A DNA stretch of 64,000 nt from Zobellia uliginosa (GTDB taxonomy: Bacteria > Bacteroidota > Bacteroidia > Flavobacteriales > Flavobacteriaceae): the NCBI RefSeq assembly GCF_900156625.1, contig NZ_FTOB01000003.1:620001-684000 (forward strand), read 5' to 3'. The notes under the pieces are model-generated. The model was given only the letters and a program-made list of their open reading frames with translations. It was not told the DNA's origin and did no database searches. The position numbers and the translations under genes were made by a program. Below, piece by piece: positions 3,238 through 38,351 of the stretch (positions are counted from its first letter, which is position 1; the number at the start of each line of letters is the position of its first letter).

Positions 3238-3645
3238 ATGGAAGAAAAAACAACACGTTGCGAAGAATTTACAGGGCTTTTTGTGGTTCGAAATTGTGAA
3301 AACAATGCAACCATAGTTTGTGATAAATGCAAAAAAAATGTGTGTAGTACACATGCCTTTAAAGCCAACCAAATTGTCAATCCAGGAAAGGAGCATGCGG
3401 TCTATAAAAAAAATAATTCCATTTTATGCATTAGTTGCTTTGTAGAGTTCGATGCACGACTTACCAATGATATAGAACTCTATTCAAAGGACCGGTCGGT
3501 TTGGAGGAGAAAAATGATACATCGATTCCATGCTGAATATCCATATATGGTATTTCTGGCCGAAGATTACGGTAGTTTATTCGATAGGAGCTCTACTGTA
3601 TTTTTGCATGATGATTCTGATGAAGGATCTTATTTTGACAGTTAA
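3238..3645 (+). CDS. Small zinc-finger-like protein
   Basis: A 135-residue protein whose N-terminal half has regularly spaced potential zinc ligands: C8, C20, C28, C31, C36, H39, H53, C64 and C67. The C-x2-C-x4-C-x2-H core (residues 28-39) followed by C-x2-C is reminiscent of B-box or AN1-type treble-clef fingers, which bind two zinc ions. No membrane helix or signal peptide is visible, so it is probably cytoplasmic. The acidic C-terminus (DDSDEGSYFDS) lacks similarity I can name. It overlaps the next glycosyltransferase by one base (TAATG), which indicates translational coupling. It may be a scaffold or regulator of the neighbouring enzymes, which is inference. Confidence 0.75.
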   Translation: MEEKTTRCEEFTGLFVVRNCENNATIVCDKCKKNVCSTHAFKANQIVNPGKEHAVYKKNNSILCISCFVEFDARLTNDIELYSKDRSVWRRKMIHRFHAEYPYMVFLAEDYGSLFDRSSTVFLHDDSDEGSYFDS

Positions 3646-36424: not shown

Positions 36425-36885
36425 TTTTTGTTGTTTAAAATTGATTTTCTTGTTTTTATAATAGATCAAGGCTTTTAGTGGCATAGGCGTTTTACGAAGC
36501 ACGCCTTTTATGGCGCTGCCCTTAAATTCGTCAGGAATAAACTCGGAATTACGGTCTATATCGGTAAGCAGTGGGTGTGTTAAAAAAGGGAACGCTTGCT
36601 GTTAAAATCGCTAATTTTCTCATAATGTAAAGAGATAAAAGGTTGGGTTCCCAAGGCTGTAATTGAGAAATAGCATAACGTTAATGATACGACTATAGTA
36701 TGGTCGAATGAGCTAGGACTATCGAAGTGCTATCCATCGCATATGGGGAAAAGTTTGTAAATAATTGGTTGTCTAGGCTTTAGGAATGGTTTAGGTATTT
36801 GTGGTCGTGGTCAGAGGTTTTATAAAAACCGAACCCAAGCTCTGGAAATTAACTTTTTTTTAGGGGGGCAACAGTTTTTATGACC
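36425..36885. other. Divergent intergenic region before the riboswitch
   Basis: No gene was found in this stretch. Its right end leads into the riboswitch promoter; the rest shows no structure I can support. Confidence 0.5.
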
Positions 36886-36893
36886 TACTTTTG
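36886..36893 (+). promoter_or_regulatory. Promoter -7 box (TACTTTTG) ahead of the riboswitch
   Basis: TACTTTTG is a full TAnnTTTG match. A start about 7 nt downstream would place the RNA 5' end near 36900, just before the first riboswitch helix at 36908. Confidence 0.6.
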
Positions 36894-36904
36894 CCGGCTT
36901 AAAT

Positions 36905-37020
36905 TAATTATCAAGAATCTCAAGAACGGAGATAGCAACCTGCATTAACGAGCAAGGTGCTAAAGAGATAAGCCAATTAGTTGGAACCAATGTTACCCCA
37001 TACTTCTGCTTATCTAAAGC
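36905..37020 (+). ncRNA. SAM-I-clan riboswitch candidate without a P4 helix
   Basis: The core reads TTATC-AAGA (P1 5' strand 36908-36912), P2 hairpin ATCTC/GAGAT (36917-36921 and 36929-36933), then AGCAACC, P3 ACCTGC/GCAAGGT (36938-36943 and 36952-36958), the invariant GGTGCTAA (36956-36963), and the P1 3' strand GATAA (36967-36971). The pieces TTATCAAGA, GCAACC, AAGGTGCTAA and GATAAG are the SAM-I box core in the right order. The usual P4 helix after GCTAA is absent, as in SAM-IV and SAM-I/IV-type RNAs, and a small hairpin CCAA-ttag-TTGG follows (36973-36984). AGATAAGC (36966-36973) can pair perfectly with GCTTATCT (37008-37015), which gives an alternative to P1 and a plausible expression platform before the ATG at 37050. 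Confidence 0.65.
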
Positions 37021-37049
37021 TGTTTCCTTTTTGAAAAGAATAAAGAGAA

Positions 37050-38351
37050 ATGGCACATTCGAATAAGCTTACCCCCCAATTTTCGGCTTTGATCCCCTTG
37101 TTGGTCTTCGTTCTTACGTTTTTGGGCGTTGGCATCTACCAAAACGATTTCTATGCCTTACCGGCCCCGATAGCCGTTATTGCGGGCATTATCGTGGCGT
37201 TTCTTATGTTCGGCCCATCGATAAAATCAAAAATAGGCACCTTGTTAAAAGGCTGTGGCGATGAAAAAATACTGACCATGTGCCTGATCTATTTACTGGC
37301 CGGGGCTTTTGCCGCCCTTACTGAGCAAACCGGTAGTGTAGAGGTGATCGTAAACTTGGGATTGGATTTTATAGCCCTTCCGTATATCTATGTGGGGATT
37401 TTTATCATTGCCGGGTTTCTCTCGATCTCCACCGGTACTTCGGTCGGTTCCATCGTTGCCCTCGCCCCTATCGTGGTGGGTTTTGCCGAGGAAAGCAGTG
37501 CCGATCTGGCCCTTTTGTGCGGCGCCTTGTTAGGGGGGAGTATGTTCGGCGACAATTTATCGGTGATTTCGGATACGACCATTGCCGCTACACAATCCTT
37601 GGGCTGTAAGATGGGCGATAAGTTTAAACAGAACATTAAAATCGCCGTGCCCGCGGCCTTGTTCACTATCGGCATTTTACTCTTTCAAGGCTGGGATTTG
37701 GGGTCCGTAGAAACCGAAACGGCAGCCTACAGCTATTCGGTGGTTAAGATACTGCCCTATGTTTTGGTCATTGTCCTTTCCATTGCGGGCGTCAATGTTT
37801 TTGTGACCCTGCTTTTTGGGGCAATTGCAGCCGGATTTCTAGGGGTAGTTTATGGGGATTTTACCCTTATGGAATCGACAAAAATCGCCTACACCGGATT
37901 TACGAACATGACGGAAATTTTTCTATTGTCTTTGCTCACGGGAGGCTTGGCGGCCTTGGTCCAAAAAAACGGGGGAATCGATTTTCTATTGGTCCATATA
38001 AAACGGCGGATCAAAAACCAGAAAACGGCCCAACTGGGTATGGCGGCCCTAGTGGGTACGATCAATACGGCGATAGCCAATAATACCGTATCCATTATCA
38101 TAGCCGGGCCCATTGCCAAATCGATTACGGATGAATACGGTTTGGACAAGAAAAAGACCGCTTCCATCTTAGATATTTTTGCCTGTATCTCACAAGGCTT
38201 CCTACCTTACGGTGCACAAGTCTTGATGATTTTAAGCTTTGCAAAAGGACAGATCGATTACCTAGACTTGGTTTTCAACACGTGGTACTTGTTACTCCTG
38301 CTTATTTATACCCTACTGTTCATCGGGCTTCTGTCTACAAGGCGTGGCTAG
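37050..38351 (+). CDS. NhaC-family transporter, predicted methionine uptake (MetT-like)
   Basis: A 433-residue protein with about ten to eleven hydrophobic helices. It belongs to the NhaC Na+/H+ antiporter family, seen from 'GDEKILTMCLIYLLAGAF', 'TGTSVGSIVALAPI', 'LLGGSMFGDNLSVISDTTIAATQSLG' and 'IANNTVSIIIAGPIAKSI'. The Asp-rich 'GDNLSVISDTT' block is the ion-site motif of the family. The upstream SAM-type riboswitch suggests that the cargo is methionine rather than Na+/H+ exchange alone, as for NhaC-type transporters of the S-box regulon. The gene is monocistronic. Confidence 0.87.
   Translation: MAHSNKLTPQFSALIPLLVFVLTFLGVGIYQNDFYALPAPIAVIAGIIVAFLMFGPSIKSKIGTLLKGCGDEKILTMCLIYLLAGAFAALTEQTGSVEVIVNLGLDFIALPYIYVGIFIIAGFLSISTGTSVGSIVALAPIVVGFAEESSADLALLCGALLGGSMFGDNLSVISDTTIAATQSLGCKMGDKFKQNIKIAVPAALFTIGILLFQGWDLGSVETETAAYSYSVVKILPYVLVIVLSIAGVNVFVTLLFGAIAAGFLGVVYGDFTLMESTKIAYTGFTNMTEIFLLSLLTGGLAALVQKNGGIDFLLVHIKRRIKNQKTAQLGMAALVGTINTAIANNTVSIIIAGPIAKSITDEYGLDKKKTASILDIFACISQGFLPYGAQVLMILSFAKGQIDYLDLVFNTWYLLLLLIYTLLFIGLLSTRRG

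Follow-up and report, generated by a model that had tools for sequence, protein, structure and literature searches.

The 64,000-nt stretch of Zobellia uliginosa DNA analyzed here (the window; GCF_900156625.1, NZ_FTOB01000003.1, positions 620,001 to 684,000 of the forward strand) carries a SAM-I/IV riboswitch aptamer ahead of a gene for a MetT-type transporter of the NhaC superfamily, a probable methionine importer (Table 1). The aptamer is the sole Rfam match above threshold when both strands of the window are searched with all 4227 families, and it is present as a single copy in the genome. With an E value of 4.1e-7 in that search (64-kb window, both strands and all of Rfam), the match stands far above chance.

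The element had originally been predicted to start at a -7 box, and such a box, matching the Bacteroidota consensus TAnnTTTG that is placed at -12 to -5 by PMC9723704, is indeed found upstream of the aptamer. The association is general among relatives: a box lies within 45 nt upstream of the aptamer in 41 of 43 distinct leaders, where shuffled sequences would give 2.1. With the transcription start placed from the box, the RNA has a 5' leader of about 152 nt. The distance from the end of the aptamer to the start codon is usually about 50 nt (36 to 73 nt in leaders with a clear start), and flavobacterial mRNAs are described as having no Shine-Dalgarno sequences (PMC9723704).

Table 1. Features of the riboswitch locus, with the other SAM riboswitches on contig C22
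Feature	Position	Strand	Details
-7 promoter box	36886..36893	+	TACTTTTG (Bacteroidota TAnnTTTG); transcription start inferred at about 36898
SAM-I/IV riboswitch aptamer (RF01725)	36903..37000	+	58.7 bits, cut-off 41.1, model positions 1-99
P1 5' strand	36908..36912	+	TTATC; pairs with 36967-36971; 99.1% of cells paired in 43 leaders
P2 hairpin	36917..36933	+	36917-36921 with 36929-36933; without internal loop
P3 and SAM pocket	36934..36961	+	GCAACC / GGTGC; paired letters invariant in 43/43 leaders
Pseudoknot PK-2 5' strand	36946..36950	+	TAACG, in P3 loop; leader alignment
Anti-P1 5' strand	36966..36973	+	AGATAAGC; overlaps P1 3' strand
P1 3' strand	36967..36971	+	GATAA; Rfam match, leader alignment
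Hairpin after P1 (P5)	36973..36984	+	CCAA / TTGG, 36973-36976 with 36981-36984; 97.1% of cells paired
Pseudoknot PK-2 3' strand	36991..36995	+	TGTTA; leader alignment
Anti-P1 3' strand, first part of downstream switch strand	37008..37015	+	GCTTATCT; duplex and swap tests
Downstream switch strand, second part	37018..37035	+	AGCTGTTTCCTTTTTGAA; swap tests
MetT-type transporter gene, NhaC superfamily, probable methionine importer	37050..38351	+	433 aa; PF03553, tree, riboswitches in homologs' leaders
One SAM-II and two SAM-I riboswitches (L177, L175, L174)	contig C22, 15592-15678, 17083-17197, 35046-35152		within 20 kb

Class, conservation and covariation of the aptamer

The original prediction read the element as a compact SAM-I-type riboswitch and possibly as a minimal variant class that had gone unrecognized in Bacteroidetes. 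Its anatomical description is borne out. The core pieces lie in the predicted order and places (TTATCAAGA from 36908, GCAACC at 36935-36940, AAGGTGCTAA at 36954-36963 and GATAAG at 36967-36972), P2 is short, P4 is missing, with 5 nt between P3 and P1 leaving no space for it, and a small SAM-IV-like hairpin follows the core. With respect to the class, the attribution to the SAM clan holds and that to SAM-I itself does not. Among the three covariance models, only SAM-I/IV recognizes the site (58.7 bits), as the SAM-I model (RF00162) scores 22.2 bits there, about half of its cut-off of 44.4, and the SAM-IV model (RF00634) gives no match anywhere in the genome at E <= 10. Membership of SAM-I was rejected on this score and on the missing helix P4, and membership of SAM-IV on the missing model match. 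Since the SAM-I/IV model passes its gathering threshold over its whole length where SAM-I and SAM-IV fail, the supposed variant class is a known family, and a new aptamer class was likewise rejected. The window aptamer is a member of the named class SAM-I/IV, published in 2010 as the "SAM-I-IV-variant" from "several phyla, marine" (Weinberg et al. 2010, PMC2864571), and the class recurs in the family, with matches over the cut-off in 52 of 397 family genomes.

We found no difference between the window aptamer and SAM-I/IV, with which it shares, over the full length, a P2 without internal loop, the P3 pocket, the hairpin after P1 and the pseudoknot PK-2 between the P3 loop and the 3' tail. The P2 without internal loop is the feature that PMC2864571 gives as setting the class apart from related ones, and PMC6890682 describes SAM-I/IV as having neither PK-1 nor a division into P2a and P2b; in the window, too, there is no PK-1, because P2 is undivided. 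Relative to SAM-IV, the same source gives SAM-I/IV a P4; the window has no helix in the segment from P3 to P1, and the only one is the hairpin after P1, named P5 here. SAM-IV resembles the window aptamer in its 3' hairpin, its PK-2 and the lack of P4 between P3 and P1, but differs from it in the divided P2, in PK-1 and in the model match. The SAM-I riboswitches (S-boxes) that precede metT share the pocket letters and, in Bacillota and Pontibacter, the target family, whereas the window aptamer has no P4, a P2 that is short and undivided, and a SAM-I score below the cut-off.

A total of 49 leaders were collected, 43 of them with distinct aptamers upstream of the transporter, and these 43 were aligned for all aptamer counts. 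Thirteen positions of SAM-I are within 5 A of SAM (PMC6890682). Twelve of them do not vary in the 43 distinct leaders, and the remaining one, C8, is C in 42 (one C-to-U change). The window carries all 13 letters, and SAM is the predicted ligand. P2 is a 5-bp hairpin, paired in 100% of cells and changed on both sides in four of its five pairs. The five pairs of PK-2 are kept in all leaders that have letters at both positions. Changes on both sides are seen in two of the five, namely the outer pair (U-A in 31 and C-G in 11 of 42, with one gap) and the inner pair (A-U in 17, G-U in 16 and G-C in 10 of 43). A candidate sixth, outer PK-2 pair is unsupported, being unpaired in 26 of 43 leaders.

Across the 43 leaders, standard pairs make up 97.4% of the 1246 aptamer cells, and both sides have changed in eight pairs. 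Two-sided changes are found in 41 cells, compared with 10.5 in shuffles (0 of 500 shuffles as high), while the number of standard pair types does not exceed that of shuffles (16 versus 15.0; 156 of 500). When the partners are slid out of register, pairing drops to 24 to 43%. The covariation changes are located in P2, PK-2 and P5; the P3 pairs are uninformative on covariation either way, because they never vary. Only 5 to 7 nt lie between P3 and P1 throughout the alignment, so that the P4 of SAM-I is missing here as well. The comparison of orthologous leaders that had been proposed as a check thus gives a covarying P2 and a covarying pseudoknot, and the riboswitch is genuine, well conserved, of a known class and placed on a target gene that fits.

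The transporter gene and its homologs

The NhaC-type gene that had been predicted behind the riboswitch is there, its product matching PF03553 with 93.3 bits. Homologs with at least 38% identity are present in 12 of 40 relatives (own genome included), and RF01725 lies upstream of 11 of these 12, compared with none of the eight distant NhaC paralogs scanned. In a sample of 149 genomes of the family, 14 have a homolog, and the aptamer precedes it in 11 of the 14.

We extended the comparison to several phyla with the best 80 of at least 580 confirmed homolog loci, which were scanned for riboswitches at gathering thresholds only; two of these loci (L168 and L173) have less than 130 nt of upstream sequence and could not show a riboswitch. 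Upstream of these best 80 of at least 580 loci, SAM-I/IV is found in 21, SAM-I in 11 and both in none, so that a predicted SAM sensor of one or the other class precedes 32 of them, in line with the SAM-responsive control of a MetT. Of the SAM-I carriers among these same best 80, 10 are Bacillota and the eleventh is Pontibacter, a member of the Bacteroidota. A tree of 56 proteins was built from 47 of the 80 homologs, the window protein and eight paralogs. On this tree the SAM-I/IV carriers require a single label change, counted over the labelled rows and omitting 23 rows that have no riboswitch label. Pontibacter branches just outside the SAM-I/IV clade (95/90), and the NhaC paralogs form a separate group (100/100). 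Within the tree's flavobacterial clade, four loci (L108, L109, L117 and L121) gave no riboswitch match above threshold.

Three further observations concern the surroundings of these homologs. In Pontibacter litorisediminis (L112, 1642-1744) a SAM-I riboswitch stands ahead of the transporter homolog, at the place where Flavobacteriaceae carry SAM-I/IV. In Tissierella simiarum (L128, 1844-1906) a RAGATH-18 RNA (RF03064; 57.2 bits, cut-off 44.9) lies about 95 nt before the transporter match, where others bear SAM riboswitches. In three Flavobacterium loci (L104, L105 and L106, at about 3360-3478) a Flavo-1 RNA (RF01705) directly follows the transporter gene.

In published work, MetT is a member of the NhaC superfamily that probably transports methionine; S-boxes control it in Clostridium and other Gram-positives, and MetJ does so in Vibrio and Shewanella (PMC2940859, PMC3228920). 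The window gene belongs to a family homologous to the MetT of these reports and resembles it in having a predicted SAM-responsive regulator upstream, with 44 to 46% identity to Bacillota homologs that carry SAM-I and to a homolog from Vibrio; its regulator is SAM-I/IV, as opposed to the S-box or MetJ of other MetT genes. A MetJ-box-like pair agreeing at 13 of 16 positions was found about 50 nt before the match start of the Alkalimonas homolog (L169), and none stands out in the other four of the five loci examined. By homology, the transporter probably imports methionine. From the SAM sensors of the homologs and the MetT literature together we infer methionine uptake as the likely output, in agreement with the original prediction, and regard this inference as well supported.

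A sodium/proton antiporter, or a carrier of another amino acid or sulfur compound, with a switch that does not serve methionine, seems unlikely to us. It would be in keeping with the placement by Pfam and NCBIfam, which goes only as far as the Na+/H+ antiporter superfamily, and with scores under the equivalog cut-offs for NhaC (TIGR00931; 84.5 versus 370) and ArcD (45.2 versus 650). Weighing against it are the SAM sensors of two riboswitch classes that homologs share across phyla, as seen in the best 80 of at least 580 loci, the MetJ-box-like pair ahead of the Alkalimonas homolog, and the distant NhaC paralogs, which stand apart in the tree and lack a riboswitch in all eight cases scanned.

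Alternative pairings between the aptamer and the start codon

The 8-bp perfect complement that had been predicted to replace P1 is found between the two anti-P1 strands (Table 1). The best duplex of the anti-P1 region in the window has -13.3 kcal/mol; when the stretch downstream was shuffled 300 times with dinucleotides preserved, 1.3% of the shuffles gave a duplex at least as stable. The second part of the downstream switch strand (37018-37035) has two mutually exclusive pairings, one with 36919-36936, comprising the P2 loop, the P2 3' strand and the P3 5' strand (-18.6 kcal/mol, rank 2 of 42 downstream partners), and one in which its first dozen bases pair with the start codon region at 37041-37055 (-11.6 kcal/mol, rank 4). 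Equivalent choices are seen in relatives with other letters: in Myroides the strand TTTCTGGC can take either GCCAGAAA of the aptamer or ATGTCAGAGAA of the start region as its partner, and in Flavobacterium GTCATAA pairs with TTATGAC, over the start codon.

We compared the native duplex of each leader with duplexes whose partner strand was taken from another leader (partner-swap test, 42 leaders, omitting six with identical aptamers, L028, L054, L094, L096, L100 and L107, and the near-copy L085). Because the test was devised after the leaders had been inspected, its P values are to be read with caution. For the anti-P1 pairing (P1 3' and P5 5' strands), native duplexes average -8.10 versus -7.18 kcal/mol, with 3 of 20000 permutations as low; the signal persists after collapsing relatives to 22 clusters (median P < 1 in 500, at 500 permutations per draw) and fades with coarser clustering (median P = 0.046 for 15 clusters and 0.10 for 8). 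The start-codon helix gives -9.19 versus -7.58 kcal/mol in the 42 leaders (0 of 5000 as low), with a median P < 1 in 500 for 12 clusters and of 0.034 for 5 clusters, and the P2/P3 strand gives -13.01 versus -11.21 kcal/mol in the same set (0 of 5000 as low), with P = 0.004 for 9 clusters and 0.019 for 6. Reversed-strand controls of the three tests showed no significant effect on the full sets, and the nearest of the clustered controls had a median P of 0.08 (29 clusters).

The signal is not evenly spread over the leaders. Within the ATGGC subgroup (16 leaders, the window included) the start-codon swap is empty (-10.66 versus -10.31 kcal/mol, 1109 of 5000 as low), and the signal comes from the other 26 leaders (-8.28 versus -6.39 kcal/mol, 0 of 5000). 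Dinucleotide shuffles of single leaders are mostly not significant, with P < 0.05 in 3 of 28 for anti-P1 and 2 of 28 for the start helices. No consensus structure emerged downstream of the aptamer from RNAalifold with column shuffles, and a single conserved downstream structure was rejected on that result.

With respect to folding energies, when 12 coding bases are included the window leader has a minimum-energy fold in which the anti-P1 helix forms and the AUG is open; if P1 is enforced, the AUG becomes closed. With 30 coding bases, the AUG is closed in both states (0.01 and 0.01), so that the switch is not seen in the folding energies of the window alone. Over the 42 leaders, which are not independent of each other, the openness of the start region (-3 to +6) is 0.413 in the free fold and 0.328 with the aptamer enforced (Wilcoxon, P = 0.001), and that of the AUG alone is 0.329 versus 0.268, the AUG being more open in 29 of the 42. 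Freeing only the P1/P5 strand yields 0.296 versus 0.243 for the AUG, but no more than a shuffled strand does (P = 0.77). Taken over the relatives, mutually exclusive pairings with co-varying partners suggest a masking of the start codon, on a platform with a spacing of about 50 nt in the window and a switch strand that covaries in the relatives.

Given the class of the aptamer, its conservation and covariation, the association with the transporter and the coordinated variation of the alternative pairings across the leader set, we consider it likely that the SAM-I/IV riboswitch in the leader of this metT-type gene controls methionine uptake through strand exchange that masks the start codon, and that the window behaves as the set does. 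When SAM is plentiful, its binding would keep P1, P3 and PK-2 together, and the strand downstream of the aptamer would be free to pair with the start codon region, turning translation off. When SAM is scarce, 37008-37035 would invade the aptamer by base-pairing to the 3' strand of P1 and to the P2/P3 strand, which would free the start codon and turn methionine uptake on. Control would be translational rather than transcriptional.

Two other explanations were weighed for how such a leader might act. Transcription termination by the same aptamer, in which the U-rich stretch 37022-37033 would end a terminator stem in the SAM-bound state, draws on a T-rich run (TTTCCTTTTT, 37023-37032) just upstream of the start codon, a feature that the window shares with many relatives. 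We judge it improbable: an intrinsic terminator was rejected as no terminator-like site was found in 36700-37200 (0.7 expected in shuffles), the strand containing the run covaries with the aptamer and start-codon strands in the full leader set, and translation attenuation is reported to be the commoner mode outside Firmicutes (PMC2258182). Less probable still is a leader peptide whose AUG within PK-2 (36990-36992, ATGTTA) would be masked by SAM binding, with failing re-initiation at the transporter. A frame of 14 codons on the plus strand (36990-37034) does start in PK-2 and end 15 nt before the transporter start, an ATG occupies this place in 22 of 28 leaders, and one-base differences in the frame are synonymous at 0.41 versus 0.27 in each other frame (12 leaders). 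Yet the remaining 6 of the 28 leaders have ACG, several frames are shifted, differ in length or run past the transporter start, variable states scarcely favor third positions (12:11:15), and PK-2 constrains these letters anyway; a leader peptide starting in PK-2 was rejected on this thin evidence.

Beyond start-codon masking in the window, we tentatively entertain, at somewhat less than an even chance, a broader reading in which flavobacterial SAM-I/IV riboswitches, in bacteria without Shine-Dalgarno sequences, work as a three-way strand choice: a single downstream strand would pair either with P2/P3 and P1 of the aptamer or with the start codon, its letters changing from clade to clade so as to match both partners, and the riboswitch class would have been swapped on the gene. 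Within this reading, SAM-I on the orthologous Pontibacter gene would mean that one class has replaced, or been turned into, the other. As the riboswitch on the homologous gene is SAM-I in Pontibacter and SAM-I/IV in Flavobacteriaceae, such a class conversion or replacement is testable.

Other SAM sensors and SAM-I/IV matches without the transporter

The genome also holds two SAM-I riboswitches and one SAM-II, which places three SAM riboswitch classes side by side. The SAM-I riboswitches lie before a metY-type gene and before a metH-like gene of 333 aa, whose match covers the N-terminal part of metH and scores under the full-length cut-off (NCBIfam), and SAM-II precedes metK (NCBIfam).

SAM-I/IV has been described as typical of metagenome sequences (PMC2864571), whereas here it is well defined and has a conserved target in cultured bacteria, namely Zobellia, Flavobacterium, Cellulophaga and their kin. 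In the open-access text we found no description of SAM-I/IV in Flavobacteria or before NhaC/MetT genes; PMC9723704 reports the Rfam matches of a Flavobacterium in its supplements. The new parts are modest. They are the link of the riboswitch to metT in flavobacteria, the strand-exchange platform that covariation suggests, and the class change on a homologous gene within Bacteroidota; these three were not found in the open-access literature.

In the 397 family genomes, RF01725 has 63 matches, 61 of them over the cut-off, and for 39 of the 63 the transporter gene is absent downstream (up to 1.5 kb; about 120 nt only for L010). These orphans are L005, L010, L011, L014, L015, L017-L027, L029, L031, L035, L036, L038-L042, L044, L046, L048, L080, L083, L084 and L086-L093. 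An ORF of at least 45 aa follows within 120 nt in 34 of the 39 (median 52 nt); 27 of these 34 ORFs are under 200 aa, and they belong to several unrelated families. A Pfam search with 10 representatives of the 34 downstream proteins gave no match above the curated cut-off. The pocket letters are kept in 37 of the 39 orphans, with J1/2 often different (CAGGAAC, TCGAAC), and these aptamers may be SAM sensors for uncharacterized genes, or a variant with another ligand.
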